The position numbers and the translations under genes were made by a program. Below the pieces are notes generated by a model. That model worked only from the letters and a program-made list of their open reading frames with translations, did not search any database and was not told the origin of the DNA. Below are positions 6,929 to 60,703 of a stretch of 64,000 nt of DNA, one piece after another. Each line of letters opens with the position of its first letter. The first letter of the stretch is position 1. The DNA lies in contig NZ_POUL01000010.1 of NCBI RefSeq assembly GCF_002890895.1, forward strand, positions 1 to 64,000. The letters run 5' to 3'. The stretch comes from Stutzerimonas stutzeri (lineage in GTDB: Bacteria > Pseudomonadota > Gammaproteobacteria > Pseudomonadales > Pseudomonadaceae).

Positions 6929-7005
6929 GCACCAGTAGCTCAGCTGGATAGAGTACTGCCCTCCGAAGGCAGGGGTCGTGGGTTCGAATCCCGCCTGGTG
7001 CGCCA
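6929..7005 (+). tRNA. tRNA-Arg, anticodon CCG
   Basis: A 77-nt cloverleaf: acceptor stem GCACCAG (6929-6935) pairs with CTGGTGC (6995-7001), the anticodon stem CTGCC/GGCAG encloses the loop CTCCGAA giving anticodon CCG for CGG codons, the T-arm loop TTCGAAT is present and CCA (7003-7005) is encoded. It serves as the attachment site for Island A, and its 3' half is repeated at 40453. Confidence 0.97.
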
Positions 7006-15792: not shown

Positions 15793-15873
15793 AAAAGAGA
15801 CACCTGAACGGCATCCCTCGTGGTCGGCTGACGGGTGCCTGAGGGCGCACCACGTCAGCAATGAGGTCTCGTC

Positions 15874-40452: not shown

Positions 40453-40504
40453 TGCCCTCCGAAGGCAGGGGTCGTGGGTTCGAATCCCGCCTGGTGCGCC
40501 ATAT
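40453..40504 (+). repeat. Second copy of the tRNA-Arg 3' half (attR of Island A / attL of Element B)
   Basis: Perfect 52-bp copy of 6957-7008 beginning in the anticodon stem. The tRNA 5' half is absent, so this is not a functional tRNA. It marks the right end of Island A and the left end of Element B, whose integrase starts 164 bp further on. Confidence 0.93.
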
Positions 40505-40617: not shown

Positions 40618-40664
40618 GTATGCCTGCTTGTATGCTGGCGAAAAATTCGAACCAGCGGCATACA
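40618..40664. repeat. GTATGC integrase arm-type sites, left end of Element B
   Basis: GTATGC occurs at 40618 and 40630 (12-bp phasing) and inverted at about 40659, just before the integrase start. The same motif with the same 12-bp phasing occurs at 60607 and 60619 at the other end of the element. This is the arrangement of arm-binding sites in P4-like attachment regions. Confidence 0.6.
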
Positions 40665-40667
40665 AGC

Positions 40668-41894
40668 ATGAAGCGCAGCGAGATCAAGCGCCGCCCGATG
40701 GCGGATACGACCCTAGCAGGCCTGGAGCCAGATGCAGCGGCTTACAGGGAGCACGATGGCCAAGGGCTGTACTTCCGGGTCAAGCCCAACGGTGGCAAGT
40801 CCTGGGAGCTGCGCTACAAGAAGCCGGACGGGAAATGGTCGTGGCTTGGACTTGGCAGCTATCCAGAGGTAAGTGGTGCTGGCGCCAGGCTGAAAGCTGC
40901 CGAGCTGCGTGCCGATGCGGCCGATGGGGTCAATCCACTAACCGCAAAACATGCTCGAAAAGCGTCCGCCCTCGAAGCTGCCAACAGCACGTTCGAGGCC
41001 TTAGCGCGCGAGTGGATCGAGATCCGCCGCCCGGGCTGGGCAGGCAGCACAGCGACCCGGAACATTGGCGCGCTGGAGCTCCACGTCTTCCCGGTATTCG
41101 GCCAGCGCTTGTATGCCAGCATCCTGCCGATCGAATGGATGGAGTTTCTCCAAGGTATGGAACGGCTGGGCATCATTGAACAGATGAGCCGGGTGCGCCG
41201 ATCCTGCAAAGAGATTTACGACCTCGCCCGCGTCACTGGTCGCGCCGTGCATAACCCGCTGGAAGGGCTGAGCCGCTTTCTTCAATCCAAGCCGGCAGAG
41301 AACTATGCGCACGTCACGGCTAATGAGCTGCCCACCCTCTTGCGGGCCATCAACGCCTACCCTCATGCCCATGATCTGCGCCTCGGCCTGCGCCTGCTAA
41401 TGCTGACCGGCGTGCGTCCAAGTGAGCTCCGCGAAGCTCGGTGGGAAGAGTTCGACCGTAAGGCCGGCTTATGGATGATTCCAGCTGATCGAATGAAGAA
41501 GCGTCGCCCGCATACCGTTCCGCTCTCTAGCCAGGCGCTCGAGGCGCTGAATCAGCTGCACCAGCTCACTGGTGCTTATCCGCTGCTATTCCCTGGACGC
41601 AATGACCGCACCAAGCCGCGAAGCAATATGGCGTTCAACATGGCCCTACGGCGCATGGGCTATGCCGGTCAGCAGACCGGCCACGGCTTCCGCCACATTG
41701 CATCCACGACGCTCCGTGAAAACGGTTTCCCGAAAGAACACGTAGAGGCCCAGCTATCGCACGTAGAAGACGGCGTCGCTGGGGTTTACAACAAAGCGAT
41801 ATATGTCGAGCAGCGCCGCACGATGATGCAGTGGTATGCCGATCATCTAGATTCCCTAGCAATCAATAGTGCGGTGGCAAGGTTGGAAGACTGA
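40668..41894 (+). CDS. int: P4-type tyrosine integrase (408 aa)
   Basis: Site-specific recombinase that integrates the element into tRNA-Arg. The N-terminal arm-binding domain (DUF4102 type) contains GQGLYFRVKPNGGKSWELRY and GSYPEVS; the catalytic residues are Arg250 (GVRPSELR), His339 and Arg342 (HGFRH), His365 (LSHVE) and Tyr374 (GVYNKA). The ATG at 40668 gives the conserved start MKRSEIKRRPMADTTL although its ribosome-binding site is weak. It reads away from the tRNA fragment, the usual orientation. All catalytic residues are kept, so it may be active. Confidence 0.95.
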   Translation: MKRSEIKRRPMADTTLAGLEPDAAAYREHDGQGLYFRVKPNGGKSWELRYKKPDGKWSWLGLGSYPEVSGAGARLKAAELRADAADGVNPLTAKHARKASALEAANSTFEALAREWIEIRRPGWAGSTATRNIGALELHVFPVFGQRLYASILPIEWMEFLQGMERLGIIEQMSRVRRSCKEIYDLARVTGRAVHNPLEGLSRFLQSKPAENYAHVTANELPTLLRAINAYPHAHDLRLGLRLLMLTGVRPSELREARWEEFDRKAGLWMIPADRMKKRRPHTVPLSSQALEALNQLHQLTGAYPLLFPGRNDRTKPRSNMAFNMALRRMGYAGQQTGHGFRHIASTTLRENGFPKEHVEAQLSHVEDGVAGVYNKAIYVEQRRTMMQWYADHLDSLAINSAVARLED

Positions 41895-43161: not shown

Positions 43162-43434
43162 ATGGACAACATCCAACCGATCAAGGCCGCCAGCAACGCT
43201 GCCAGCCTTCTACAGTTCGACCCCTCCGCCACCATCATTCGCATGCCGGAGCTGGCGGCCATTACCGGCCTTGCGCGACCAACCATCTACAAGCGCTTGA
43301 AAGATGACCCAGCATTTCCAAAGCCCGTACCGCTGAGCAACAGCAAGGCACGTGGCGCCCCTGTCGGCTGGGTGCTGGCTGAGGTGCAAGCATGGGTGAG
43401 ACAGCGGATCGCACTTCGGGGAGAAGCAGCATGA
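43162..43434 (+). CDS. AlpA-family phage regulatory protein (90 aa)
   Basis: Small MerR/excisionase-like DNA-binding protein of satellite and prophage islands. IIRMPELAAITGLARPTIYKRL is the helix-turn-helix core, followed by FPKPVPLS and WVLAEVQAWVRQRI, the standard AlpA pattern. In P4-like elements such proteins control excision or the lytic switch. It is the first gene of a run of tightly packed plus-strand genes; the next gene overlaps by 4 bp. Confidence 0.88.
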   Translation: MDNIQPIKAASNAASLLQFDPSATIIRMPELAAITGLARPTIYKRLKDDPAFPKPVPLSNSKARGAPVGWVLAEVQAWVRQRIALRGEAA

Positions 43435-43715
43435 AAAAGGCCGCCCCGGCGAAGGATAGCGGCCTGCAAAACATGCCAGCCGATTATAGCCAGCCCCAGT
43501 TTCAAGACCATGAACAATTCATCCTCGATCAGTTGCTACCTCTGATCGTCGGCTACGCGCGCACCAGCGGAGCGCAGAGCGAAGTGGTGGCGCTGTGTTC
43601 GTTCATGAGCTTATCGACGGTGCTGCAAGCGAAAGGGATGGACCGCGCCACATTGGTGGCCGCGATTGATGCCTCACGCCTGCAGATGCATGACGCGCCG
43701 GAGGGACTGCAATGA
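43431..43715 (+). CDS. Hypothetical protein (94 aa)
   Basis: Starts at an ATGA overlap with the AlpA stop codon and ends at another 4-bp overlap with the next frame, so translation is coupled on both sides. The sequence (FILDQLLPLIVGYARTSGAQ) is mostly helical. Its function is unknown and it was not assigned to a family. Confidence 0.65.
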   Translation: MKKAAPAKDSGLQNMPADYSQPQFQDHEQFILDQLLPLIVGYARTSGAQSEVVALCSFMSLSTVLQAKGMDRATLVAAIDASRLQMHDAPEGLQ

Positions 43716-44164
43716 AGACGCTTGCCACCCCTCGCCGCTGGATGTATCGTTCGACGGTCGCTGCAAATTCAGCGACCGGGCGTAGGAACCCGAGAATTAG
43801 TAGGCGCAACAGCGCCCAGATCACCACTGCCGGCGTTTTTTTTCGTCCGCAGTTCTGTGTTATGGCGGCTGTGTGTGGGCAGGCTTCGGCCTGGTCGGGT
43901 GCCTACTATCCCGATATTCCTACCCCGCACACAGCTGCCACCCAATCCCGTAGGAAGGACGGTGGCGGCTCCGATCGCAAAGTAGGAGCTCCACCCATGC
44001 GCACCACCCTCAGCATCAATCCGTCCAAATCTCACGCTGCAGCTTGGAAGGCCCGCGCCTTCGCCGCCCTGCGCGCTAATTCGTCTCTGTCCGTTCGCCT
44101 TCGTCGATACAACGCAGCGATGGCTCGTGCTCGCCAACTGGCGGCTATGGAGGTGGCGCAATGA
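43712..44164 (+). CDS. Ash/Icd-like ORF, possibly overlapping a structured RNA (150 aa)
   Basis: The N-terminal part contains ANSATGRRNPRI, the hallmark of the Ash (P4) and Icd-like families of satellite phages, and continues with the family's cysteine/tryptophan-poor low-complexity sequence to KVGAPPMR. An internal ATG at 43997, with AGGAG eight bases upstream, could start a separate 55-residue basic protein (MRTTLSINPSKSHAAAWKAR). The T run at 43838-43845 after a GC stem might end a short transcript. In P4 this region encodes the CI immunity RNA, so part of it may act as RNA. Confidence 0.5.
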   Translation: MKTLATPRRWMYRSTVAANSATGRRNPRISRRNSAQITTAGVFFRPQFCVMAAVCGQASAWSGAYYPDIPTPHTAATQSRRKDGGGSDRKVGAPPMRTTLSINPSKSHAAAWKARAFAALRANSSLSVRLRRYNAAMARARQLAAMEVAQ

Positions 44165-44939: not shown

Positions 44940-45156
44940 TCGCATCGTTCCGCTTACTCGTCCCAAGCGCCAAGGCACAGAGCAAGCTCATATTGACCAG
45001 GCAAGCTATGTCCTGCTGGTCGAAACCCTGATCGGCTTTCTCGAGCTCTGCATTAAAGAAGGAGACCACTGCCGGCACTTCTCCGAGCTTGAACGCTTAA
45101 CCAACCAACTCCAGCGCCTCGCCGATCGGCACACGCCGCCGAAGGGGGTCGCATGA
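44932..45156 (+). CDS. Hypothetical protein (74 aa)
   Basis: Starts within the previous gene and ends at a 4-bp overlap with the Toprim gene. Mostly helical (YVLLVETLIGFLELCIKEGD) with a Cys/His cluster (CIKEGDHCRHF) that could bind metal but is too short to interpret. Function unknown. Confidence 0.6.
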   Translation: MTDRIVPLTRPKRQGTEQAHIDQASYVLLVETLIGFLELCIKEGDHCRHFSELERLTNQLQRLADRHTPPKGVA

Positions 45157-46037
45157 ACGCAGCCCCTGAGACTCAATTTCGGGACGCCCTGCAGGCCACG
45201 TTCGGCCCGCTCGACTGGCTACCTGAACCAGATGGATCAATCCACCGATTCAAAGTGCCAGGCGATAAGCCGGGGGCGCTGAACGGCTGGTACGTGTTGT
45301 TTCTTGATGGCATCGCATCCGGTGCGTTCGGTAGCTGGAAGGACACCGGCACCTGGCACAACTGGAGTAGCCGCAAGCCGGCTGATTACCTTGAGGCGGA
45401 TCTGATTCGCCAGCGTATCGAGCACGCCAAGAGCCAGCGGGAAGCTGATCAGGCGCGCCGCCAAGCGGCCGCAGCTAACTATGCGTCCCGGCTTTGGAGT
45501 GATGCGCGGCCGGCATGTGAAGACCATCCCTACCTTGCGGCCAAGCACGTAGGTGCTTACCGCCTGCGCCAATTGGGTGATGTCCTGCTTGTTCCTCTCT
45601 ATGTCGATGGCGCGCTGTGCAATCTGCAGCGGATCAGCGCGGACGGGACCAAGCGGTTCCTTTCTGGCGGTCGCGTCAGGGGCGCCTACTCGCCTATCGG
45701 TGCGCTTGGGCCGGGGCTGCCCCTGTACGTGTGCGAGGGCTGGGCTACAGGCGCCACCATCCACGGGCAAACAGGCGCTGCGGTCGCCTGTGCAATGAAC
45801 GCGGGCAACCTAAAGCCAGTCGCTCAAGCACTTCGCGCCAGGCACGGCTCCGCCCTCCAGATCGTGATTGCGGGTGACGACGACCGGCAGACCGAAGGCA
45901 ACCCCGGCCGGACGGCAGCAACCGCTGCGGCCATCGCTATCGGCGCCGACGTTGCTTTCCCAGAGTGGCCAGAAGGCGCACCGATCGAACTCACGGATTT
46001 CAATGATCTGCAGAGATGGAGCGCCGCCCATGAATGA
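45153..46037 (+). CDS. Toprim-domain protein, primase-like (294 aa)
   Basis: Replication-type protein. The N-terminal part has WHNWSSRKPADYLEADLIRQ; the C-terminal Toprim domain has the acidic pattern PLYVCEGWATGATIH (metal-binding Glu) and QIVIAGDDDR (DxD). This is the layout of phage and island primase/helicase partners. It overlaps the DUF3631 gene by 8 bp, so the two probably act together to replicate the element. No zinc-binding domain is visible at the N-terminus. Confidence 0.82.
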   Translation: MNAAPETQFRDALQATFGPLDWLPEPDGSIHRFKVPGDKPGALNGWYVLFLDGIASGAFGSWKDTGTWHNWSSRKPADYLEADLIRQRIEHAKSQREADQARRQAAAANYASRLWSDARPACEDHPYLAAKHVGAYRLRQLGDVLLVPLYVDGALCNLQRISADGTKRFLSGGRVRGAYSPIGALGPGLPLYVCEGWATGATIHGQTGAAVACAMNAGNLKPVAQALRARHGSALQIVIAGDDDRQTEGNPGRTAATAAAIAIGADVAFPEWPEGAPIELTDFNDLQRWSAAHE

Positions 46038-47553
46038 CGGAAATGTCGTTGCCTTAAATACTAAGAAGCCCATCGATGAGGCAATCAAGCGGCTGACTAA
46101 AGATGCCGGCGCGCTTTACGAACCTACCGTGCTCGCTGAGCTGAAGCGCGTCCGCGCAAAGGATCCATCAGCGTGGGCACGCCTGCGCAATCAGGTAAAG
46201 GAAACCAAGGCCCTATCCATGGTGGACTTCGACCGGCTCACGGCTCAGGACGACGAGGACAAGGCCTCGGTTGGCGGAGGGATCTTCCCAGAGGTTACCC
46301 CTTGGTCATCGCCAGTCGATGGTGCCGAGCTGCTCGACGAGATCAGCCACGCGATCAAGCGGCACGTGATCGCCGACCCCGCAACGATCCAAGCCGCAGC
46401 TCTGTGGGCCACGTTCACATGGTTGATCGACTCGGTACAGGTCGCACCGATCGCCAACATCACCGCCCCGGAAAAGCGGTGCGGTAAATCGATCATGCTC
46501 ACCACACTGGGCAACCTCGTGAACCGGAAGCTGCAGGTATCGAACATCGCATCGGCCGCGCTCTTCCGCTCTATTGAGCTTTGGTCACCGACGCTGCTTA
46601 TCGATGAAGTGGATGCGTTCCTGCGGGACAACGAAGAGGCGCGAGGCATCCTAAACGCCGGCTTCACACGTGACAGCGCCGTGGTCATTCGCTGCGTTGG
46701 CGATGACCACATGCCCACGCCGTTTCGTGTTTGGGGTGCCAAAGCCCTATGCGGAATCGGCAAGATCGCCGACACGCTGGCCGACCGCAGCATCCCATTG
46801 CGGCTACGCCGACGCCTCCCAGGTGAGCAGGTAGAAGTCTTGCGTCATTCGGACCCTGGCCTGTGGGCCAACCTTCGAGCCCGGATGATGCGGTTCGCTC
46901 AGGACAACGCCGAACAGATCGGAAGGTCACGACCGGAGACCATCAAGGGACTCAACGACCGCGCCAATGACTGCTGGGAACCCTTGCTCGCCATCGCTGA
47001 GGCGGCCGCCGGGGAATGGCCAACCATCGCTCGGCAGGCAGCGAGAAACCTGCACGACGTCGAGGACGATTCACCAAGCGTCGGCGTCGAGCTGCTCACC
47101 GACATCAAGACCGTGTTCGATGCCAAGCATGCAGCGAAGGTTTTCAGCGCTGCCCTGCTGGAGGCCCTCGTGGAAGACGAGGAAGCGCCATGGGTGACCT
47201 GGAACCGCGGCAAGCCGATGAGCCCCCGTCAGCTTTCGACAAAGCTTGGCGAGTTCGGGATCAAGTCGAAGGACATTCGGATCGGGGCAATCAATAAAAA
47301 AGGCTACGAGCGAAGCGACTTCCTAGAGGCCTGGGACCGTTACCTCTCCGCCATACCCTCCCTTGCATCCGCGACAACGCGACACCCCAGCAATGACGCG
47401 GGTTGTAGCGATATTACATCCGCGACACGGGGCGGCTCTGTCGCGGATAAAAAAACGCTGAAAGCCACGGATGACGCGGGTTGTCGCGCTGTCGCGGATA
47501 GAGAGGCGGTACCGCTGGAAGGTACTGCCGGTGACGACGAGGAGCTTTTCTGA
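46030..47553 (+). CDS. DUF3631 helicase-like ATPase (507 aa)
   Basis: The N-terminal ATPase region has a Walker A-like APEKRCGKS (146-154) and Walker B LLIDEVD (189-195), followed by a DUF3631 domain (PRQLSTKLGEFGIKSKDIRI). This family is common in bacterial islands and is thought to unwind DNA for replication. The C-terminal 60 residues are polar and contain two near repeats of TxDAGCxDI/TDDAGCRAV. Paired with the upstream Toprim protein it makes a satellite-type replication module. Confidence 0.85.
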   Translation: MNDGNVVALNTKKPIDEAIKRLTKDAGALYEPTVLAELKRVRAKDPSAWARLRNQVKETKALSMVDFDRLTAQDDEDKASVGGGIFPEVTPWSSPVDGAELLDEISHAIKRHVIADPATIQAAALWATFTWLIDSVQVAPIANITAPEKRCGKSIMLTTLGNLVNRKLQVSNIASAALFRSIELWSPTLLIDEVDAFLRDNEEARGILNAGFTRDSAVVIRCVGDDHMPTPFRVWGAKALCGIGKIADTLADRSIPLRLRRRLPGEQVEVLRHSDPGLWANLRARMMRFAQDNAEQIGRSRPETIKGLNDRANDCWEPLLAIAEAAAGEWPTIARQAARNLHDVEDDSPSVGVELLTDIKTVFDAKHAAKVFSAALLEALVEDEEAPWVTWNRGKPMSPRQLSTKLGEFGIKSKDIRIGAINKKGYERSDFLEAWDRYLSAIPSLASATTRHPSNDAGCSDITSATRGGSVADKKTLKATDDAGCRAVADREAVPLEGTAGDDEELF

Positions 47554-49445: not shown

Positions 49446-50303
49446 ATGTTCGGACTGAAACTACTCAGCGAGCCCCAAGAGCGAACCTTTGAGGATCAGC
49501 TTGCCGAAGCGCACGCGCTCGCTGACTCCCTGCGAAGCGATATCGAAGCCGCAACGAACGACAGCACCGCCGCCAGTAAGCGACCTATCAGCGGGATGCA
49601 CGATGAGCTCCGCGCCACCGAAGGCGAAATCGAGCGACTCGGGCGAGCGATTGCACAGCGCGACAACCTGCTGAACTGGAAGGCTGCGCGAGATAGTGCT
49701 GACACAGACATTAAGGCAGCCAAGAAAGAGATGGACGCTGCAGGCAAAGCCCTGGCTGTGCTCGATGCCGACTATGAAAAGGCGAGCGCCAAGCTGACCA
49801 AGTTGCGATCCGCGACCGAGGCAGAGCTAGCCACAGCTCAGCAAAGCGAGAACCAAGCCGCAGAGGCCTACGCAACAGCAATGGCACGAGGCAGCGAGAC
49901 TGAAGAGGCCGCCGCCCTGGAGACGCTGAATCGTCTTTCCGAAGCGCTTGAGCAGATCCAGCGCAAAACCGCCCGCCAGAGCGTCGTGCTCCAAGCGCTG
50001 CAAAACCAGGTCGACGCCATCGACCAGAAGCGTGCCGTTGAGCGGCAGCGCTTTGAGAGCGCTCGCGAGCGCCGACTGCTAGCCGTACGCCACAAGCTCG
50101 GCACACGGTGGGATGCAATGGCAAGCGAGATGGCGGAGCTGGCCGCTCAGATCGTCGCCGTGGACTGGGCTGTAAGCCGCAGCTCCCGGGCGATGGATGA
50201 TCTGCACATTCCCGTTACTGCTAAAGACGGCGGTGCGCCCATTACTGGCCGAAAAGTTCGAGATTCCAGCAGCGCAATTGATGTCGATGCGCTGCGCCCC
50301 TGA
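49446..50303 (+). CDS. Coiled-coil phage protein (285 aa)
   Basis: Long heptad-rich alpha-helical protein (about residues 15-215), for example ALAVLDADYEKASAKLTKLR. AAGGAG precedes the ATG. It lies directly before the tail chaperone, where tail genes are expected, but resembles no major tail protein. It could be a scaffold-like or structural factor; unassigned. Confidence 0.65.
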   Translation: MFGLKLLSEPQERTFEDQLAEAHALADSLRSDIEAATNDSTAASKRPISGMHDELRATEGEIERLGRAIAQRDNLLNWKAARDSADTDIKAAKKEMDAAGKALAVLDADYEKASAKLTKLRSATEAELATAQQSENQAAEAYATAMARGSETEEAAALETLNRLSEALEQIQRKTARQSVVLQALQNQVDAIDQKRAVERQRFESARERRLLAVRHKLGTRWDAMASEMAELAAQIVAVDWAVSRSSRAMDDLHIPVTAKDGGAPITGRKVRDSSSAIDVDALRP

Positions 50304-50482
50304 GTAGTACCTGCAAGGCGCCCAGTCGGCCAGTGGCGTAGTAACCCCGACAACCGGCACGCCTTTTTCCATTTGGAGTTTCCGAGGCGGTGGCCGGCAC
50401 TAGGCGCAAACGGGCCGATACCCGCAGTGCCTTTTCATTCCCCTTCGCTGCGAAGCGCTCGCAGCCCATCGGAGTATTTGAA

Positions 50483-50806
50483 ATGACCCATACCACTAAT
50501 TCCAAAGAGCTCATGATCGGCGACCTCTCCGTCATCGTCCGTGAGCTAACCGTGCTCCAGGTTCGAACTTGGCTCGCAGATATGCAGAAGCCTGACCCAG
50601 CACCGCGCGATCTGGTTGATGAGGGCTTTTTTGAAGAGTGCTCGGTGGCAGACATTTGCCGCATGAGCTCGATAACGACCGACCAGATCAACGCGCTGCG
50701 GCCTTCCCAAGTGCGCCAGGTGATCGCGCTCTGCAAGGAGCTGAACCCTGATTTTTTCGGGTTCCGGGGGCGTCTGGGCTGGGCTCCTCTGGAAGCACAA
50801 GGCTGA
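50483..50806 (+). CDS. Phage tail assembly chaperone, short form (G-like, 107 aa)
   Basis: GGAG precedes the ATG at 50483. The protein contains LQVRTWLADMQKPD and IDQ-like helical segments typical of tail chaperones, and sits immediately upstream of the tape measure gene as in siphophages. A slippery heptamer near its 3' end leads to a longer form. It would coat the tape measure and recruit tail tube subunits during assembly. No major tail protein gene precedes it. Confidence 0.75.
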   Translation: MTHTTNSKELMIGDLSVIVRELTVLQVRTWLADMQKPDPAPRDLVDEGFFEECSVADICRMSSITTDQINALRPSQVRQVIALCKELNPDFFGFRGRLGWAPLEAQG

Positions 50807-50928
50807 AAGAACTGGATCGCTGTATCGCCGCCATGGTGCAACTGGGGCACACCCTGACCCCTTATTACCCTTGGTCATTTTTCCTTTCGGCAATGGCTAG
50901 TACTGGAGCCTTGAATGGCAAACGTTGA
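50483..50928 (+). CDS. Tail assembly chaperone, -1 frameshift product (GT-like, about 148 aa)
   Basis: The zero frame reads GAT TTT TTC, giving the heptamer T_TTT_TTC at 50752-50758. A -1 shift there opens a frame that runs through LKELDRCIAAMVQLGHTLTP and PWSFFLSAM to a TGA at 50926-50928. The extension has the usual GT ending and overlaps the tape measure start (50915) by 14 bp, as in lambda-type phages. The frame is open throughout; that slippage happens is inferred. Confidence 0.7.
50752..50758 (+). promoter_or_regulatory. Programmed -1 ribosomal slippery site (T_TTT_TTC)
   Basis: Canonical X_XXY_YYZ heptamer in phase with the chaperone frame. It is followed by a GC-rich stretch (CGGGTTCCGGGGGCG) able to pause the ribosome. 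It links the G and GT forms of the tail chaperone. Confidence 0.7.
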
Positions 50929-53900
50929 GCTCAAGTTTTCGACCGACCTGAACGCGGCAAAGAAAGAGGTTGCCGGGTTCCGGAAGGAATATGCAGAGAT
51001 GGTCAAAGCGGTCGAAAAGCCGCTCCGGCAGGTCGATGCGCTCAAGAAAACCCAGGAAAATGCCAAAGCCGCATCGGCTGAGTTCTACGCTGCGAAGCGC
51101 AGCGTTGAGCAGTTGGCGAAGGCGATGGAGGCCGCCTCCGGCGCGCCGGTAAAGGGTTTGGCTGCCGAGATGAACAAGGCAGAGCGCGCCCTTGCCCGGG
51201 CATCCACTGAGTTCGAAAGGCAGAAGGCAAAAGTCCGGGAACAACGGGCGGAGCTACGTGCTGCCGGCGTGGATACCCGCAATCTCGCAGCCGAGCAGAA
51301 GCGCCTCGAAGCAGAGATGGCCAAAGGCATGACGGCTGGCCGGAATGATGTCGCAGTGAGGGGCATTCGTGAGCGAGCCAATGCGCTTTCTGAGGTCACT
51401 CGTCAGCAGAGGCTGGCGAACATCGAGCAGGCGAAAAGCTCGCTCGGCGTCACTCAGTACCGCGCGGCCGGCGCACAGATCGATCGCCTCCGCGGGCAGT
51501 ACGAGCTTCTGCGCAAGTCGGGGAGCCTGACCGCCAAGGAACTGGAGGTCGCACAGCGCAACCTCACTCAGCGGATCAATGAGTCTCGCGTAGCCCTGCG
51601 TGGAATGGCCGGCGAGCAGCAGAAGATAGGTGGCGGCCGGATCGGCGCTGGATCTGTTGCAGCCGGTGTCGGTGCGGCTTATAGCTCCGCCCAAGCATTG
51701 CGCGGGTATGCGCAGATCACCGATACCGCAAAGCAGATGGATGCTCAGTTGAGGCTGGCGACCAACAGTCAGGAGGAGTTCAACCGAGCTCAACAAGAGC
51801 TATTCACGATCGCTCAGAACACGGCGGCCCCCGTCGATGATGTCGTTAGAGTCTATGCACGGCTAGCCCCCGCGCTGGATGAAATCGGACGAAAAGGCGA
51901 CGCCACGAAGGTGGTAGATGCGCTCAGCAAGGCACTGAAAATCAATGGCGCCACGACCGCCGAATCATCCTCTGTGCTTCAACAGTTTTCTCAGGCAATG
52001 GGTTCTGGAGTTCTGCGCGGCGAAGAGTTTAATGCGATCGCCGAGGCTGCCCCTCCGCTAATGCGAGCCTTGGCGCAGGGTCTAGGCGTACCCACCGGGG
52101 CGCTGCGAGCTATGGCGTCCGAAGGTCAACTCACCGCTGAAGTGATCACCGACCTGACCGTCCAGGCGCTGCCAGACCTGACCAAGGCAGCCGAGAAATT
52201 GCCGGACACGGTAGGTAACGCAATGGCTAGGCTTCGGAATGACCTGGTCAAAGCCTTTGGCGAGGGCGACAGTTCCGGCCTTGTCACAGCTATTACGAAG
52301 CTGCGCGAGCTGCTGACCGATCCGGCAACCGTCCAAGCGTTGAATGATCTCGCAGCCGGGATGGCCACCCTAGCCGGTTACACTATCACCGCCGCGCGCG
52401 AGTTCACCGCCTTTGCCAAGGAACTTTCGTTCGCAGCAGCAGGCGCAGCGGGACACATTGATGAACTGGAAAAGCTGAAGAAGACACTCGCGGGCGTCAA
52501 AGCGGCCCGGGATGGCGGCGACTTTATCGGCCGTCCGACAGCCACGTTCTTCATGGACACCAAGCAGCTCGACGATTGGGTAAAGGAGCTCGAGGGGAAG
52601 ATCGAGGCGATGAACGCCAAGATTGCGGGCATGACCCTTGAGGCATATCGGCAAATGCAGAAAGGCGCCCAGCAGGCAGCCGACCAGCAGAAGGCCGCTG
52701 CCGAGGAACAGATAGCAGCCGACGAATACCGATTCCGCCACTTCACCAAGTATGTCGGCGACCTGAAGAGCAAGCAGGGCGAGGCGTTGAAAAATGCTGA
52801 GGCGTACCTGAACAAACAGGTCGCACTTGAGCGCAAAGCGACTCAGGATCTAGAGAAAGCCAAGCAGGCCCAGCTCGAAACCCAGCAGCGCTATACCGAG
52901 GCGCTTGCCGGTTTGAGCGGCGGCGGTACCGCGTCGTATGGGGCCGCCCAGGATCTGAAGGTAAAGGCCAGCCAGGCGCTGACCAGTGGTGACGTTGAGG
53001 GGGCGAAGCAGTACGCGCAGGCCGCGCTGAAAATGCTTCAGGACTTGGCAGATGCCGGGGAAAACACGTTCGGCTTCGAGGGCTTCATCCGCTCACTCCA
53101 GGGCATCGAAGACGCCGCTGACAAGATCAATGTGGACAAGGCCAAGCAGGCACTCGACGACGTCAAAAAGAAAGGCGTCGATCTCAAGGCCCTGCTCGAC
53201 AGCCTCTCCAAGACGACCATCACCGTGAAGATGGACGACGCTGCGCTTGAGGCGGTGCGTCAGCAGATCATCGACCTGAGCAACCTAGCCGGCAAGCCAA
53301 TCTCGATCATCACGACCGCAGCCAAACCGGGCAGCGAAGGCGGTACCGGCCCCGCTCCATTAGCCCCGGCGATCACGCCGCAGGTGGATCCCGCCGCGGT
53401 ATCGGCGGCGCAGCAGCAAATTAGCTCGCTTGCTCAAGCGCTTCAGCAGCAGTTAGTCATTCCAGTTACTCCGGTGGCCACTGGGTCGCCAACGATCTAC
53501 CAAAACGGCAACAGCTACTCGCAATTCCCATCGCAAGAAGGATTCGCGGCTGGTGGCTGGACTGGCCCGGGCGGGAAGTACAAGCCGGCCGGCATCGTTC
53601 ACGCTGGCGAGCACGTCCAGCCGCAGGAGGTTGTCCGCGAGCCAGGCGCATTGCCTTTCCTCGAGATGATCCGCCGAAACGGTTTCCGGGCAACGCTCGC
53701 CAAGATGCAATCGGGAATGCGGGGCTACGCGGAAGGCGGCCTTGTCAGTAGTAGCGCCCTCACACCGCGGTTTCCCGGCATAGGCGACCAGCTTGAGCGC
53801 GCCGCCACAGCCGGCCCAAACATGCCCGATCTAGGCCGTGTGGAGTTCGATATGGGCGGCGGAAACAGCTTTTCCATGTATGCCGAGCGCAATCAGATTA

Positions 53901-53947
53901 GCGAGATCAGAACGGCTGCGAAGAAGTTCGGCCGCACTCATCGCTAA
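50915..53947 (+). CDS. Phage tail tape measure protein (1010 aa)
   Basis: Sets tail length in long-tailed phages. The N-terminal 240 residues are coiled coil; residues about 255-450 form the tape measure domain (QITDTAKQMDAQLRLATNSQ, GSGVLRGEEFNAIAEAAPPL and PDTVGNAMARL); a helical centre follows, and the C-terminus has the typical GGWTGPGGKYKPAGIVHAGE. GGAG precedes the ATG. The frame is intact over 3 kb, so it is under selection or recently acquired. At about 1.5 angstrom per residue it would specify a tail near 150 nm. No other main tail gene is present. Confidence 0.92.
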   Translation: MANVELKFSTDLNAAKKEVAGFRKEYAEMVKAVEKPLRQVDALKKTQENAKAASAEFYAAKRSVEQLAKAMEAASGAPVKGLAAEMNKAERALARASTEFERQKAKVREQRAELRAAGVDTRNLAAEQKRLEAEMAKGMTAGRNDVAVRGIRERANALSEVTRQQRLANIEQAKSSLGVTQYRAAGAQIDRLRGQYELLRKSGSLTAKELEVAQRNLTQRINESRVALRGMAGEQQKIGGGRIGAGSVAAGVGAAYSSAQALRGYAQITDTAKQMDAQLRLATNSQEEFNRAQQELFTIAQNTAAPVDDVVRVYARLAPALDEIGRKGDATKVVDALSKALKINGATTAESSSVLQQFSQAMGSGVLRGEEFNAIAEAAPPLMRALAQGLGVPTGALRAMASEGQLTAEVITDLTVQALPDLTKAAEKLPDTVGNAMARLRNDLVKAFGEGDSSGLVTAITKLRELLTDPATVQALNDLAAGMATLAGYTITAAREFTAFAKELSFAAAGAAGHIDELEKLKKTLAGVKAARDGGDFIGRPTATFFMDTKQLDDWVKELEGKIEAMNAKIAGMTLEAYRQMQKGAQQAADQQKAAAEEQIAADEYRFRHFTKYVGDLKSKQGEALKNAEAYLNKQVALERKATQDLEKAKQAQLETQQRYTEALAGLSGGGTASYGAAQDLKVKASQALTSGDVEGAKQYAQAALKMLQDLADAGENTFGFEGFIRSLQGIEDAADKINVDKAKQALDDVKKKGVDLKALLDSLSKTTITVKMDDAALEAVRQQIIDLSNLAGKPISIITTAAKPGSEGGTGPAPLAPAITPQVDPAAVSAAQQQISSLAQALQQQLVIPVTPVATGSPTIYQNGNSYSQFPSQEGFAAGGWTGPGGKYKPAGIVHAGEHVQPQEVVREPGALPFLEMIRRNGFRATLAKMQSGMRGYAEGGLVSSSALTPRFPGIGDQLERAATAGPNMPDLGRVEFDMGGGNSFSMYAERNQISEIRTAAKKFGRTHR

Positions 53948-53982
53948 TTGCTAAATAAATCAGCTAACCAGCAGGAATATTC

Positions 53983-54435
53983 ATGAACAATGAATCAAGC
54001 GGAATTGAATCCTACAAACCAGAAGCCGACAGCGATTGGTTGCTTCAGCACGTTGTCGATCTAACCAACACCGGTATTTCCGTTCCAGTCACGCTGACCA
54101 CTGCGGCCGGTCTCGTCACGGGCGTCACCATCCACGGCGCTGAATACCTTGATCTGTTCAAGCTGGAACTGACCAAGAATTGGCCGAGCGATATGCAGGG
54201 CACCTATTCCGAGGTGGTGGAGCAATGGAAGGCAGACGTTTATCCACGGCCGTCATCGATCGAGCACGATGGTCCTGAACGCTTCGCATCGTTCATCCAT
54301 CTGAAAGATGCCCGCCTGGTCAACGCCGGCACCGTTGTTCCAGGCAATCGCGGGATGCTTTGGCGCGGACGGTTGACCTCGGTTATTGGCTTCACCATCG
54401 GCGTGCTGAGCCATAGCGGCGCTAACGAGGAGTAG
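53983..54435 (+). CDS. Hypothetical protein (150 aa), weakly GvpU-like
   Basis: Follows the tape measure gene by 35 bp. The segment DWLLQHVVDLTNTGISVPVT and LVTGVTIHGAEYLDLF loosely resembles GvpU accessory proteins, but the similarity was judged by eye and may be misleading. The last third is globular (FASFIHLKDARLVNAGTVVP). In this position a tail-tip or tail-associated role is also possible. Confidence 0.55.
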   Translation: MNNESSGIESYKPEADSDWLLQHVVDLTNTGISVPVTLTTAAGLVTGVTIHGAEYLDLFKLELTKNWPSDMQGTYSEVVEQWKADVYPRPSSIEHDGPERFASFIHLKDARLVNAGTVVPGNRGMLWRGRLTSVIGFTIGVLSHSGANEE

Positions 54436-54441
54436 CAGTCT

Positions 54442-55146
54442 ATGATCAAGGTCAGCGCCAAAGGCCTCTCTAAGCAGCTTCAGGAGCTGAAGGACATCGA
54501 GCAGAAGGCGATGCCATACGCTGCCGCCGCGGCGTTGACCAAGACAGCGGTAGGCCTGAGACAGGCTCTCTCCGCCGAGATGAACAACATCTTCGACAGG
54601 CCCACCCCATACACGCTGAGGGCGTTCGAGTACCACGCGGCGACCAAGGAGAAACTCGAGGCACGGGTATGGCTCCGAGAGACCGCAGGAGGGCCCGGCA
54701 GCAGGCGAACAAGCACGCAGCCCCCTTCTGTTTGGTTACAGCCTCAGATCTTCGGCGGGCCTCGGCGTGACAAGGGTAGCGAGCGCCAGTTGCGAAAGGA
54801 TGGGCTGCTGCCTATCGGGAATTACGTTGTGCCAGGCAAAGGGGCACAGCTCGACCAGTACGGCAACATCAAGCGAGGCGACGTTACCAAGGCGCTAGCT
54901 GGAGTTAGAAAGAAGTCGAAGCGGTACTTCGTGATGTACCGAGACAAGAAGCCCATCGGTATTGGTCAGCGCACCTCGCCTGGTAAAGGCGGAATGTCTG
55001 TACTCCTCGCGTTCGTTGATAAGCCAACCTACTCGAGGCGGCTGCCCTTCCATCAGGTTGCCGAACGATATGTCGAGCAGCACCTGCCTGCTGAGTTCGA
55101 TAAGGCGCTTGAGGCAATGGTGAAACGATTTGCCCAGACACGTTGA
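54442..55146 (+). CDS. Putative phage structural (tail-completion-like) protein (234 aa)
   Basis: Begins MIKVSAKGLSKQLQELKDIE and continues AMPYAAAAALTKTAVGLRQA, a pattern seen in small phage virion proteins near the tail genes. The central part is basic (GGPRRDKGSERQLRKDGLL) and the end LPFHQVAERYVEQHLPAEF is helical. It is 6 bp after the previous gene and ends the tail unit. Assignment to a specific virion role is tentative. Confidence 0.5.
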   Translation: MIKVSAKGLSKQLQELKDIEQKAMPYAAAAALTKTAVGLRQALSAEMNNIFDRPTPYTLRAFEYHAATKEKLEARVWLRETAGGPGSRRTSTQPPSVWLQPQIFGGPRRDKGSERQLRKDGLLPIGNYVVPGKGAQLDQYGNIKRGDVTKALAGVRKKSKRYFVMYRDKKPIGIGQRTSPGKGGMSVLLAFVDKPTYSRRLPFHQVAERYVEQHLPAEFDKALEAMVKRFAQTR

Positions 55147-55185
55147 TGGGATGCCGCGGGTCCTTCTGGCCACCCCCTACCCCTC

Positions 55186-55397
55186 GCGGGGTAATTGAGG
55201 CCCGACCTTTCGCTATTCATGAGCCTTTCTGAAAGGTTGGTTGTTGTTTAGTTCTGCGGGGCCAAGCCCGATGCGTTTCCGCGCCATACGGGCCGTATAC
55301 GCAGCTAGGGCGCGGTCTAACACACCAACCGGAACCGGAAACGGCCTCTCTGGGAAAAGTTCGTATGAAGCGAAGGGCCGGGCCCCAATTACCCCGC
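55186..55397. repeat. 18-bp inverted repeat flanking a 176-bp spacer
   Basis: GCGGGGTAATTGAGGCCC (55186-55203) and GGGCCCCAATTACCCCGC (55380-55397) are inverted with one mismatch. An 11-bp direct repeat GGCCACCCCCT lies just outside on each side (near 55169 and 55430). The spacer has no gene. The layout suggests a packaging site, replication site or recombination footprint. Confidence 0.6.
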
Positions 55398-55492
55398 ACC
55401 ACCCCACCCCCTCAGGAGGACCCAAGGCCACCCCCTGGGTATGGCTGAGCCCGAGCGGAGCAAGTCCGAAAAATCACTAACGGAGAGAACTG

Positions 55493-55690
55493 ATGTCGAT
55501 CACCTACGGGCGCCCAGAGCAAGAAACTGTCCCGTTTCCGAGAGAGCTCGCTGTATTGATCGTGAAGAAGGCGTGTCGAATGGCAGAGAAGTTCGAGAAC
55601 GAATGCATCGACACTATGAAACGTGACGCCCGGCGCGCACTGCAGCGTGGTACCGACCCCGCCGCCATCGTTCGCCAGCTTGGCCTCTGA
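55493..55690 (+). CDS. Hypothetical protein (65 aa)
   Basis: GGAG lies ahead of the ATG. Helical, basic (AVLIVKKACRMAEKFENECI, DARRALQRGTDPAAIVRQLG). It stands alone between two inverted repeats. No family recognised. Confidence 0.55.
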   Translation: MSITYGRPEQETVPFPRELAVLIVKKACRMAEKFENECIDTMKRDARRALQRGTDPAAIVRQLGL

Positions 55691-55776: not shown

Positions 55777-55907
55777 CCCCATCCCGTCAATTCCGGACAT
55801 CATGCCCAACACGTCTATTGCTCGTGATCGGGGCTGAGCGACGCCCTCTTAGTAGATCCGACCGCCTTTCCGCTAGCGAAATACAGCCTCAACGGGAGCG
55901 CTATCTC

Positions 55908-56162
55908 ATGGTCAAGTACAAGACCATCAAGCAGTTTGCTGCTGAGAGCGGCTACACCGAGCACGCAATCAGAACTAAGTGTTCCAACGGAACCTGGCTC
56001 GAAGGTCAGGTTTGGATCCGCGCTCCGGATAACAAACCGCTGATCAGCGTCGAGGGGTATCACGCCTGGGTTGAATCAGGCCCAGCACCACGGCCAGAGC
56101 TACAGGTTGTGACTAAGCCGCAATCAAAAGGCAAGGTAATGAGCCCGCCCCCGCTGACATAA
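55908..56162 (+). CDS. xis: Phage excisionase family protein (84 aa)
   Basis: Starts YKTIKQFAAESGYTEHAIRT and continues with NGTWLEGQVWIRAPDNKPLI and SVEGYHAWVES, the standard pattern of the pseudomonad excisionase. GGGAG precedes the ATG at 55908. In intact prophages this gene and DUF4224 adjoin their own integrase; here none follows. Confidence 0.82.
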   Translation: MVKYKTIKQFAAESGYTEHAIRTKCSNGTWLEGQVWIRAPDNKPLISVEGYHAWVESGPAPRPELQVVTKPQSKGKVMSPPPLT

Positions 56163-56175: not shown

Positions 56176-56406
56176 TTGTTCCTATCCAGCAAAGAAATCG
56201 AGCAGCTGACCGGCTATCAAAAGCCATATGTTCAAGCCCGGTGGTTTGAACAGGCGGGTCTGCCATTTCTAAATGGTGGCGACGGGAAAGTGAAAGTTCG
56301 ACGCCTAGCAGTCGAGCAGCGGCTGGGGTTGGGGTTGGGCACTAGTCAGCCGCCTAGGCGAGAGCCCCAGCTGCGCTTGGTGGACAAGCAGCGAGGCAAG
56401 AACTAA
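56176..56406 (+). CDS. DUF4224 domain protein (76 aa), TTG start
   Basis: FLSSKEIEQLTGYQKPYVQA and WFEQAGLPFLNGGDGKVKV match DUF4224, which normally lies between excisionase and integrase genes. The start at 56176 is a TTG. The C-terminus is basic. It follows the excisionase by 13 bp. Confidence 0.75.
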   Translation: MFLSSKEIEQLTGYQKPYVQARWFEQAGLPFLNGGDGKVKVRRLAVEQRLGLGLGTSQPPRREPQLRLVDKQRGKN

Positions 56407-56758
56407 CGATGCGGAGAATCCGACTTAACAAGCGCAGAGCACCAACGGTGATCTTCGATGCCGCCCTTCAACCACATCGTTACACTCGTGCGCAGCTGGT
56501 TGCTACAAGTGAGCCAGGATCACATGTAAGCGCTTCAGTCAGCGCAGCAAGATATTGCTTCGTTTCGTCCTGCTTTAGTCAATCCACTGGACGCACGCCA
56601 AAGCTCCGGCCAGTTCTCTCATCGGAGAAGCTCGGAGATTCGATCGATTCCTTTTCAAAACGAGTCGAGCCGCTTACGGCCATACCTGAATAGCGCACCA
56701 AACCTGAATGACGTCGCGCGTCTGCGGTCAACTGCCCAAAGCAGATCGCGGAGTAGTT
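56407..56758. other. Region where an integrase would be expected, degraded
   Basis: A short open frame (56409-56693) begins MRRIRLNKRRAPTVIFDAAL but loses sense quickly and has no tyrosine recombinase motif. It may be a decayed integrase start. No other feature was found. Confidence 0.4.
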
Positions 56759-56902
56759 ATGTGCGGACGCATCACGCAGTACAGGCATGCAGTTGAATAC
56801 CTCGACGCGCTGCAGGTCGACTTGCCGCTGCATAGCGGGATCGACCCAGAGCCGATCGGCCGCTACAACGTGCCGCATAATCGCCTCAGGGAACGCCGCT
56901 GA
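56759..56902 (+). pseudogene. SRAP/YedK-type peptidase, N-terminal remnant (48 codons)
   Basis: GGAG precedes an ATG that begins MCGRITQYRHAVEYLDAL and continues PIGRYNVP, the hallmark of SRAP proteins with catalytic Cys2 and the conserved Arg-Tyr-Asn. The frame ends at a TGA 48 codons in, where a full protein has about 220 residues. No continuation in another frame could be followed. A full copy is often carried by prophages. Confidence 0.65.
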
Positions 56903-57541: not shown

Positions 57542-58504
57542 TCAACTAGCGGGGCTCTGCTCATTTAGCGGCGCAGAATGTACTGATCCCGTAGCCGTAT
57601 CACTCGGAACCGCATGCAATGAGGAGGTATGCGGTCCGTTCTTCGGCGAGCTTCCGGTGAGCATTCTATGCAGCTCATCGCGGTCCGGGTATGGTGTTCC
57701 GAGCTGAGCGCTGGCTGGATTGCCGCGGTATTTCTCTACTGTGGACTCACCATTCCATTCTTTAGTTAGCCGCACCACCCCTTCAAAGAGTTTGGGGTCC
57801 AACTTTTGAGCTTCGATAATCATATGGAAGTGTCTGCGCTCTAGGCCCCCTAGAATAACGCTGAAACACTCACGCAGAAGGCATGCGTCAAGGTCTCGGA
57901 ATTTGATGCCCTGCGCCAGAAATTCGAAATAGTTCAGGACATAGACCGAGCCGTCTAACGCATCAACGATGTCTTTAGGAATATCCGCGTTGCGATACTC
58001 GTCTTTATCAGGGTTCACACGCCACTCTGCCAGTTCCTGCGGCACGGAGCGAGTCCTATAGAATTTCCTCGAATTGCTCAGCTGCCCTTGGTACTCGGTA
58101 CTAGTCCTTGACGACATGATGATGTTGAGCGTGTGGGTTCTTCGGGCATTAGCTGCCGTGGTAATGGACTGTATCCACCACCCCATCCCGACGAAGACCC
58201 CCGTCACTAATATGGACAGCGAGGTCTGGTAGGACTCTTGATAGCGAAGCACCAGATAGCTGGAGACAATGACAATCCAAACTATCCAGCTAAATAGGGG
58301 GAGCATCTCGGCAGTGTCTGGATATTTGCGCACGATAAAGCTAAAGGCGGCAAGCACCGCCAGCGAAGCGCCTGCTAACGCGATGAATCCGTCGAGAAAT
58401 TGAATGTCGAAAGGCAGAGAAGCCTCAGAGCCTGTGAATAAGCTCCGGATCAAGATCCCGATAACCAGGGCAGTGAATGCTGCACCGATCTTAAAGTTGT
58501 TCAT
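57542..58504 (-). CDS. Membrane protein with DUF4760-like domain (320 aa)
   Basis: About four hydrophobic segments in the first 120 residues (IGAAFTALVIGILIRSLFTG, FIALAGASLAVLAAFSFIV, IVWIVIVSSYLVLRY and SILVTGVFVGMGWWI) are followed by a cytoplasmic region with YVLNYFEFLAQGIKFRDLDA, the DUF4760 signature. The tail is low complexity. It is on the minus strand, opposite to the tail genes, as expected for accessory cargo. Defence or superinfection roles are possible but not shown. Confidence 0.7.
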   Translation of the reverse strand: MNNFKIGAAFTALVIGILIRSLFTGSEASLPFDIQFLDGFIALAGASLAVLAAFSFIVRKYPDTAEMLPLFSWIVWIVIVSSYLVLRYQESYQTSLSILVTGVFVGMGWWIQSITTAANARRTHTLNIIMSSRTSTEYQGQLSNSRKFYRTRSVPQELAEWRVNPDKDEYRNADIPKDIVDALDGSVYVLNYFEFLAQGIKFRDLDACLLRECFSVILGGLERRHFHMIIEAQKLDPKLFEGVVRLTKEWNGESTVEKYRGNPASAQLGTPYPDRDELHRMLTGSSPKNGPHTSSLHAVPSDTATGSVHSAPLNEQSPAS

Positions 58505-58527
58505 AAACTTCCCCTGTCAAAGCCATT

Positions 58528-58555
58528 AAAAAAGGCCCTAAAAAGGGCCTTTTTG
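58528..58555. terminator. Bidirectional terminator upstream of the DUF4760 gene
   Basis: AAAAGGCCCT/AGGGCCTTTT with a short A-rich loop, flanked by A and T runs, so it could work on both strands. It insulates the DUF4760 gene from minus-strand transcription coming from 59.0-60.5 kb. Confidence 0.7.
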
Positions 58556-58999
58556 TGAGGCTTAGCCTTCACCAAATCCGACGTTCATCATTTTTGATCC
58601 ACTCCCTATCTAAAGTTTAGACAACCACTCCCCACGCCTGGGGTTTGGCCCACCCTAGGTGAGGGGTGGGATCTCAAAAAATCTGACACTCGGCTAGCTA
58701 GTCTGTTCCTTCACCTTACGGGAGCTTCTGTGCATACAAATATGCTTCCAAACGCCCGCCGTCAACAAGAACATAAAACCACTCGGGCCTACTTGTCCTG
58801 TAAGGACGCGCACTATGCCACACGCTTCACGCGCTGCGAAGACCTACATCATCGGAAAGACAAACGGCTTCGATCTCTGCCGCAGCGTTCACATTTGTTG
58901 CTGCTGGAAGGTGGCGCCGCTGCGAAAATCCGAGTCCCACACTCGCGTGGCTTCTCTGTTCTGAGCGGTCGAGCGATCTCGCTCAACACGAGCCGGGAG
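58556..58999. other. Mostly gene-free cargo spacer
   Basis: A hairpin CCCACCC/GGGTGGG lies at 58649-58670. One short plus-strand frame (58815-58964, 49 codons, TAAGGA ahead of its ATG, starting MPHASRAAKTYIIGKTNGFD and containing three adjacent Cys) might be a gene, but support is weak. A longer frame from 58730 has poor composition and is not called. Confidence 0.35.
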
Positions 59000-59218
59000 T
59001 TACATCCCGCTCACGAAGTCATCGCTACCAAGGCGATGCGAGCCGTACGCCACTGAATAGGCGGGGCCGCGACTTTGAGCCTCTGCTTGGGCTACTTCCT
59101 CAGTCGCGTAGATATCCACGAAGTGCCATGTATCTCGTCTAACAACACCCCAACCGAGGACCCAGCCAGCGTTATCAGGGTCAGCTGGGAGATTTTTTGC
59201 GAGGCTTCGGATTGTCAT
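59000..59218 (-). CDS. Hypothetical protein (72 aa)
   Basis: GGAG lies seven bases ahead of the ATG at 59218. The sequence (AGWVLGWGVVRRDTWHFVDI then YATEEVAQAEAQSRG) looks like a compact beta-alpha protein. Minus-strand cargo; unknown function. Confidence 0.55.
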   Translation of the reverse strand: MTIRSLAKNLPADPDNAGWVLGWGVVRRDTWHFVDIYATEEVAQAEAQSRGPAYSVAYGSHRLGSDDFVSGM

Positions 59219-59280
59219 AGGTATCTCCGTAAGGGGTATAGCTTGGCAGCCAGGGGCAAACAGGAGGATTACCCTGGATA

Positions 59281-59757: not shown

Positions 59758-59789
59758 CGTCACTCCTCGCAGACTGCAAATTTGCTTGT

Positions 59790-60239: not shown

Positions 60240-60296
60240 GAGGGCACCTAGGCGGGGGCGGCGCGGCAAATTGTTCGCGGCCCCTACGGATGGCCA

Positions 60297-60500
60297 TCAT
60301 CGTTCTTCCAACTCGCTCCGCAATATCTGCAGATCAAGCGGCGCCTCAATGCCGATACGGACTCGAGCGCCCGTCTCGATTACATTGATGGTGATGCCAT
60401 CCAGCAGCAACTGCTCAAGAAGCTCTTCAGCGTTTGTGCCTGGCTGAACGCGCAGCGTGATCTTTTCGCCTTCCTTGCGAGTGAGGACTAGGTAGCCCAT
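60297..60500 (-). CDS. RsmN/RsmF-type CsrA-family RNA-binding protein (67 aa)
   Basis: Post-transcriptional regulator that binds GGA motifs in mRNA. The N-terminus MGYLVLTRKEGEKITL is the CsrA beta-1 strand; RVRIGIEAP near the C-terminus contains the RNA-contacting Arg48. Between them is an extra segment with an inserted helix (NAEELLEQLLLDGITINV), as in Pseudomonas RsmN/RsmF (which has AEELIRQL) and not in ordinary CsrA. GGAAGCAA precedes the ATG. It is the rightmost gene of Element B. Confidence 0.88.
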   Translation of the reverse strand: MGYLVLTRKEGEKITLRVQPGTNAEELLEQLLLDGITINVIETGARVRIGIEAPLDLQILRSELEER

Positions 60501-60625: not shown

Positions 60626-60687
60626 AGACAAATACCGCTATTTAAAACCTGTTGATATTCAAAGATTTATGTGTCGAGTTATAAGCT

Positions 60688-60703
60688 CGCCTGGGCGCCA
60701 TCT
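60688..60703. repeat. Imperfect tRNA-end match, proposed right attachment site of Element B
   Basis: CGCCTGGGCGCCATCT resembles the tRNA-Arg end CGCCTGGTGCGCCATAT, with one base missing and one changed. The match is short, but its place beside the arm-type sites and a host-like terminator makes it the best candidate for the element boundary. Confidence 0.45.

Follow-up and report, generated by a model that had tools for sequence, protein, structure and literature searches.

A probable satellite of Stutzerimonas stutzeri with an exchangeable tail-ruler cassette and a pair of different, inverted cos sites

Why should an integrated element that encodes no phage head keep an intact gene for the protein that measures phage tails? 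The question is raised by a 64,000-nucleotide stretch of DNA from Stutzerimonas stutzeri (assembly GCF_002890895.1, contig NZ_POUL01000010.1, positions 1 to 64,000 of the forward strand; hereafter the window), whose host genome comprises 4.45 Mb. A preliminary description, made from the letters alone, had seen in the region 49.4-55.1 kb either a fragment of a prophage or a satellite that remodels the tail of a helper phage by supplying its own ruler, the tape measure protein (TMP), along with its own tail assembly chaperone. Here we argue that 40.5-60.7 kb of the window is, with reasonable likelihood, a complete, helper-dependent, cos-packaged satellite that equips a siphophage helper with a ruler and chaperone of the satellite's own. 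Because it encodes a tail-length protein and bears two different phage packaging signals, yet lacks head genes, it probably hijacks phage particles and rebuilds their tails. What can be read directly from the DNA and its relatives is the gene content, the boundaries, the recurrence without head genes, the purifying selection, the frameshift signal, the homology of the cos sites and the pairing of their types.

The limits of the element are set by three features.

6929..7005, plus strand: tRNA-Arg(CCG) gene (ARAGORN), the integration target; its 3' end is the left attachment (att) site, attL, of the whole tandem insertion
40453..40504, plus strand: att copy dividing a first insertion, island A, from the satellite; 52/52 bp identical to 6957-7008; left end of the satellite
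60676..60701, plus strand: right end, attR, degenerate (CTCGCCTGGGCGCCA), placed by the empty site in genome G053

Positions 6957-7008, comprising the 3' end of the tRNA gene and its flank, recur exactly as the 52-bp repeat at 40453-40504, and at the empty site of G053 the end of tRNA-Arg(CCG) is followed directly by sequence that matches the window from 60688 onward. Two elements therefore lie in tandem at this tRNA gene, island A (7006-40504, 33.5 kb) and, second, the satellite (40505-60701, 20.2 kb). The genes described between 49.4 and 55.1 kb are real, but the element to which they belong extends, by its att and empty-site boundaries, from 40.5 to 60.7 kb. An integrase, defined att sites and an empty site in a relative are thus all at hand, and plasmid and phage nucleotide searches gave no match.

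The genes that pose the question lie on one strand in the middle of the satellite.

49446..50303, plus strand: 285-residue coiled-coil protein, typical of these satellites; 72-92% in seven relatives
50483..50806, plus strand: tail assembly chaperone, zero-frame (G-like) product; phrog_7608 E 1e-29; about 41% to gp12 of phage F10
50752-50758, plus strand: -1 slippery heptamer TTTTTTC (T TTT TTC), invariant in five elements; -1 frame to 50925 (GT-like)
50915..53947, plus strand: TMP, 1010 residues, single open frame; Pfam TMP_3 PF20155 E 8e-58; PHROG tail tape measure E 4e-63
53983..54435, plus strand: 150-residue protein in the ruler cassette; phrog_14356 E 1e-4; 58-87% in relatives
54442..55146, plus strand: homologue of F10 gp63, a 'minor tail protein'; phrog_1924 E 5e-72; phrog_27 E 7e-5

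The preliminary description had rightly recognised an intact chaperone with a frameshift signal (phrog_7608 E 1e-29) and a 1010-residue tape measure in an intact 3-kb frame (TMP_3 E 8e-58, PHROG E 4e-63). In F10 the gp12 gene stands just upstream of the TMP gene, and the N-terminal half of the window's TMP is 38% identical to the F10 protein. The heptamer lies in the correct register, with a predicted -1 shift product of 148 residues that ends within the start of the TMP gene, and each of the five elements with this chaperone retains both the heptamer and the 56-residue, nearly identical -1 frame; the G/GT arrangement known from lambda is therefore real. TMP and chaperone are not, as had been supposed, the only virion genes, the product of 54442-55146 being of virion type too by its homology to gp63 (phrog_1924 E 5e-72). 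In F10, gp63 closes the genome, with cos and the gene for the small terminase subunit (terS) coming next, and a gp63 homologue is followed in the same manner by the gene for the large subunit (terL) in 74 IMG/VR phage contigs. The model of the gp63-like protein was too weak (pLDDT 75, pTM 0.49) and gave no fold match, so that its possible role as a tail completion or neck protein is suggested solely by the weak similarity to phrog_27. Searches with the proteins of phages F10 and pAN and scans with PHROGs and Pfam families found no terminase, portal, capsid, major-tail or lysis genes, in agreement with what had been noted. The promoter that had been assigned to the back half was not recovered: no sigma-70-like site occurs in 47.5-56.5 kb, where 2.3 would be expected by chance. 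Siphophage tail length scales at about 0.15 nm per TMP residue, and the 1010-residue TMP would accordingly predict a tail of about 150 nm, longer than with the 827-residue TMP of F10.

Immediately behind these genes lie two packaging signals, which the preliminary description of 49446-55146 had missed.

55184..55255, plus strand: cos site of type I, F10-like, R-site GGTTGGTTGTTGTTT; phage-only profile E 6.6e-11
55325..55420, minus strand: cos site of type II, R-site TTCCGGTTCCGG, inverted; phage-only profile E 1.6e-15

The profiles were built from 12 phage sequences for type I (R-site GGTTGGTTGTTGTTT) and from 8 for type II (R-site TTCCGGTTCCG), and they match just these two places in the window, each also weakly matching the other site; the two scores, 40 and 55 bits, compare with a best of 10.7 bits in 30 shuffled windows. 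The sequence 3' of the satellite's gp63-like gene aligns with the cos region of gp63-carrying phages. A helper-type packaging signal is thus present in the form of two sites, each found with phage sequences only. Among 149 loci (2.66 Mb) opposite cos pairs are confined to satellites, no two sites are paired on the same strand, and some 70 phage loci contain one site each. The opposite type I/II pair is found again in G057, G058, G016, G060 and G052, more weakly in G093, and also in satellites with a DUF3631 gene and no TMP (G006, G044, G029 and contig C18 of the window genome); G028 has type I only. In G060 (IMG/VR; L090 17202-17439) the arms are exchanged, with type II near the tail gene and type I distal, still in opposite orientation, as if the pair had been inverted.

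Phages of both cos types have a large terminase subunit (TerL) of the lambda GpA type. Their small subunits (TerS) are up to about 70% identical over some 110 residues between the two classes, and entirely different in the N-terminal part; it is the N-terminal part of lambda gpNu1 that binds DNA. The cos types match phages with distinct TerS N-terminal parts, and each TerS class thus has its own site on the satellite. That the genus contains helpers of this sort is shown by a Stutzerimonas prophage in G054 with a type I cos (E 6e-22).

In the preliminary description, recurrence of the gene set without head genes and a low ratio of non-synonymous to synonymous substitution rates (dN/dS) in the tape measure were named as marks of a functional class, and both were found. 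Eight relatives carry a TMP and no F10- or pAN-type head genes, and three of them are complete, with intact att repeats: G052 (18,836 bp), G028 (18,830 bp) and G016 (about 21 kb, measured from coordinates since the element spans contig ends) are flanked by identical 45-48 bp repeats at tRNA-Arg(CCT). These three members of the genus share a chassis of small open reading frames, the 285-residue coiled-coil protein and a TMP, mostly with a 65-residue protein and an excisionase as well. Five IMG/VR contigs of 17.6-20.5 kb add four elements with a TMP 90-93% identical to that of the window, plus one whose chassis is the same although its TMP is different. TMP matches also occur in 13 other genomes of the genus, most of them in ordinary prophages. 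A search for relatives with a full structural gene set at this position, which would have marked the window copy as a deletion derivative, found none. Strong purifying selection acts on the TMP (dN/dS 0.055-0.075 in ten pairs), and its frame is open in the relatives, which bears out the earlier view that an intact 3-kb frame argues against simple decay; values are 0.07-0.08 for the gp63-like gene (close pairs) and mostly 0.03-0.13 for the chaperone, apart from a single value of 0.42 where dS is very low.

The chassis and the ruler have had different histories. The coiled-coil gene is 84-86% identical among the window, G016, G060 and G028, and 72% in G052; among the first four the TMPs are just 30-35% identical, as against 94-95% for the 65-residue gene. 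Three types of TMP can be told apart: one of 1010 residues (window, G056-G059), one of about 700 residues (G016, G060, G052), which has its nearest phage relative in pAN at 40%, and one of 656 residues (G028; phrog_2854). Judged by these sequences, the ruler is an exchangeable cassette in one conserved chassis. Among the elements compared only that of the window has DUF3631 and TMP together; its front half resembles the DUF3631 satellites and its back half the TMP satellites at tRNA-Arg(CCT), so it is probably a recombinant.

A model for how such an element would be propagated can be drawn from these features. Integrated next to tRNA-Arg(CCG) by its P4-type integrase, the satellite would await infection by a siphophage of the F10/lambda type, then excise and be replicated by its Toprim and DUF3631 proteins. 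The helper terminase would cut and package it from either cos site into helper heads, and the satellite TMP and GT chaperone would compete with their helper counterparts for the tail tube of the helper; the result would be a chimeric tail in which the helper's tube and tip are assembled around the satellite's ruler. The inverted, different cos sites probably let two classes of helper terminase package the satellite. That the element supplies its own ruler and chaperone, as first proposed, is well supported by its anatomy and by the precedent of the PLE satellites (PMC12987554); its incorporation into the helper tail, together with replication, excision, packaging and any advantage gained, is what we infer. 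The broader proposal, that a family of Stutzerimonas and Pseudomonas satellites sets its helper range by a cos pair addressing two TerS classes in opposite directions and by a swappable ruler cassette that builds a chimeric siphophage tail, seems to us evenly poised.

Several observations weigh against the satellite reading. Excision of the window copy may be impaired, since its att site on the right is degenerate and its right part contains a remnant of an SRAP (SOS response peptidase) gene and an inverted block with csrA. Its cosN cores differ in a few bases from the consensus of the phages, which makes it less than certain that they would be cut. G057 is without the coiled-coil gene, and in the elements with other TMP types no homologue of the window's chaperone can be recognised. 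A helper prophage, which the preliminary description had suggested looking for elsewhere in the genome, was not found: searches with positive controls detected neither a lambda-type TerL or portal nor an HK97-type portal in the window genome. With no resident helper of this kind, the helper would come from outside.

Four other explanations can be set against a satellite that rebuilds tails. The main rival, which we regard as rather unlikely, accepts the satellite as genuine and has its TMP and chaperone bind or titrate the helper's tail parts as a defence instead of being built into satellite particles. Interference with tail assembly is known from satellites and prophages (PMC11364771, PMC10884400), Rta of PLE11 acts on a TMP (PMC12987554), and elements swap one type of cassette for another, as would be expected of an arms-race factor; yet a full-length, constrained TMP, a conserved GT frameshift and a gp63-like gene beside cos resemble assembly parts, not a truncated decoy. 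Tail poisoning and tail building may also coexist. The cassette might on the other hand be an inert hitch-hiker, brought in with the cos/gp63 segment, with only cos of importance. DUF3631 satellites of the genus, one of them in this very genome, have a cos pair and no TMP, so a TMP is dispensable for some satellites; against this, the 3-kb frame is open in all relatives at a dN/dS of about 0.06, the slippery site is conserved and three different TMP types have been retained at the same place, and we consider a mere passenger improbable.

Least probable are the explanations that do without a satellite. TMP, chaperone, gp63-like gene and type I cos all belong to F10-like phages, as would be expected if an ordinary prophage of this kind had been reduced by deletion to some of its tail genes. 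However, the same head genes are absent from eight relatives, three of them complete; the gene order is unlike that of phages, with the gp63-like gene adjoining the TMP; TMP types have been exchanged within one chassis; there are two cos sites; dN/dS is low; and the coiled-coil protein is matched by no phage record. We therefore give this possibility very little weight, and of the two alternatives in the preliminary description it is the prophage fragment that falls, in view of the headless relatives, a dN/dS near 0.06 and the element's own cos sites. Prophage decay is ruled out by recurrence, selection and the cos pair, neither relatives with a full gene set nor relaxed selection having been seen. 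Tail genes without head genes could also recall a tailocin or another tail-like killing particle, but no tube, sheath, baseplate, fibre or lysis genes were found, and the integrase, primase and cos sites are nothing that a tailocin needs; we can hardly credit this explanation, which is ruled out by gene content.

The preferred reading of a tail-rebuilding satellite having been weighed, the remaining genes of the element can be described. Those of the front half serve integration, regulation and replication.

40620..41894, plus strand: P4-type tyrosine integrase; PF00589 E 2e-24, Arm-DNA-bind_3
43162..43434, plus strand: AlpA-type regulator; PF05930 E 4e-12
43712..44164, plus strand: Ash-like protein; PF10554 E 0.003, under the curated cut-off; phrog_6928 transcriptional repressor E 6e-7
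45153..46037, plus strand: Toprim primase-like protein; PF13362 E 3e-10; phrog_2249 DNA primase E 4e-63
46039..47553, plus strand: DUF3631 replication/helicase-like protein; PF12307 E 5e-55; 59-79% to DUF3631 satellites

Family scans thus agree with the earlier assignment of integrase, AlpA, Toprim and DUF3631; the Ash-like frame does have a match, but this PF10554 hit (E 0.003) misses the curated cut-off. The integrase is 87% identical to that of G093 (L224), which adjoins the same tRNA-Arg(CCG). The 285-residue protein is modelled as a long helical hairpin (mean pLDDT 81), for which a structure search returned generic coiled-coil matches only, none with E <0.001, and no homologue was found among phage records; a scaffold-like role is a guess. 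PADLOC matched the protein to JetC and LmuB, apparently noise due to the coiled coil. Distant homologues occur in elements of Pseudomonadaceae with P4-type integrase and AlpA (loci L221-L228), and homologues often stand beside nuclease- and ATPase-like genes that resemble defence hot spots; many weak matches in other genomes were excluded from the member count.

To the right of the cos pair follow five further genes.

55493..55690, plus strand: 65-residue protein, 94-95% conserved in TMP satellites
55818..56162, plus strand: excisionase-like protein; phrog_9668 E 5e-16
56176..56406, plus strand: second excisionase-like protein (DUF4224); PF13986 E 2e-10; phrog_4764
57542..58504, minus strand: DUF4760 protein; PF15956 E 7e-14; 61% to a gene in TMP satellite G056
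60297..60500, minus strand: CsrA homologue; PF02599 E 7e-12; 53-76% to TMP satellites

The 65-residue gene, which starts about 70 bp behind the cos pair, belongs to no family; its dN/dS is 0.03-0.05 in TMP satellites, and it is 77% conserved in capsid-carrying DUF3631 satellites. At 56758-56902 lies the truncated SRAP gene, of which related TMP satellites have full-length, intact copies. In 57542-60500 DUF4760 and csrA are on the minus strand, their homologues in TMP satellites standing upstream of the TMP and on its strand; the block is inverted or imported. Island A carries metabolic and transport genes (TRAP transporters, dehydratases, dehydrogenases, a curlin-like protein), and no integrase was seen among its larger open reading frames (7006-40504); it may have been mobilised by the integrase of the neighbouring satellite.

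Other satellites of this group vary the theme. A homologue of the S49 head-maturation protease (L090 15542-16465; L066 11474-12433; L224 8669-9775) adjoins the TMP or coiled-coil gene in several of them; it is the only head-type gene seen in the relatives and could redirect the capsid size of the helper. The window genome itself holds a second, smaller satellite at tRNA-Phe (L074, G000:C18:168000-187999, 10575-18061), with integrase, Toprim, DUF3631 and an opposite cos pair and without TMP. Three DUF3631 satellites of 9-11 kb (L075; L091, IMG/VR 2630968629_000004; L092, IMG/VR 3300014640_000005) have a major capsid gene of HK97 type after their replication genes (PF05065 E 5e-38 in L092), in the place that cos or TMP genes occupy in the others, and no cos of types I or II; they are possibly capsid-carrying sister elements.

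Satellites with a TMP (PLE, and putatively some capsid-forming phage-inducible chromosomal islands, cf-PICIs) and satellites with two cos sites (EcCICFT073, SaPIbov4) have already been published. What is new is a capsid-less, siphophage-type satellite with an exchangeable ruler cassette, and a pair of different, oppositely oriented cos sites, of which no report was found in the incomplete set of open-access literature searched. Why some PICIs have two cos sites was asked and left open in PMC6739421; paired, different and inverted sites would put directly to the test how a satellite widens its helper range. Tail-rebuilding satellites were first demonstrated in 2026, for one contractile lytic phage (PMC12987554), and exchangeable rulers in a non-contractile system would mean that tails are remodelled more widely than that. 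In an easily cultured genus in which TMP length and type can be varied, such a system would also allow one to ask why a satellite needs a ruler of its own.

Of the genes that characterise P4-like satellites, the element carries a P4-type integrase and AlpA; in place of a single large alpha primase-helicase it has split Toprim and DUF3631 proteins, and psu, delta and sid found no match among its scanned genes. The same integrase type, AlpA, a short Toprim primase (293 residues) and a helicase recur in AH14b, a 16.8-kb satellite of Pseudomonas sp. ANT_H14 that is packaged in its helper's capsids; this likeness is drawn from the description of AH14b, for which no head-neck-tail module protein other than a homologue of tail assembly protein I, and no TMP, are reported (PMC4936722). 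Phage F10 shares the chaperone (about 41%), the N-terminal half of the TMP (38%), the gp63 family and type I cos, but is a full phage whose single cos adjoins terS, whereas the window element has two cos sites, no terS and no head genes. EcCICFT073, a PICI of E. coli, likewise has two cos sites and no TerS of its own, and is packaged by lambda-type cos phages, as we propose here; its two cosN sites are both lambda/phi80-like, and a satellite protein, Rpp, serves its cosB (PMC6092414, PMC6739421), whereas the window element combines sites of two different helper types, both with a phage-like R-site, that are separated by about 70 bp and point in opposite directions. Like the window element, cf-PICIs carry part of the virion genes, in some cases with a putative tmp (Extended Data Fig. 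10, PMC12987554), but they bring capsid-forming genes, while no capsid, protease, portal or terminase gene was found here. The closest functional parallel is with the PLE satellites of Vibrio cholerae, which encode a TMP of distinct types, a tail assembly chaperone and a hub, and build chimeric tails with the tube and tail tip of the helper (PMC12987554), as proposed for the window element; the two are likened by function only. The dual cos pair is not reported for PLE, and where PLE11 adds a baseplate hub protein, the window element has a gp63-like protein next to cos (PMC12987554). The helper of PLE, ICP1, is a contractile lytic phage (PMC12987554), whereas the likely helper of the window element is a siphophage of the lambda/F10 type.

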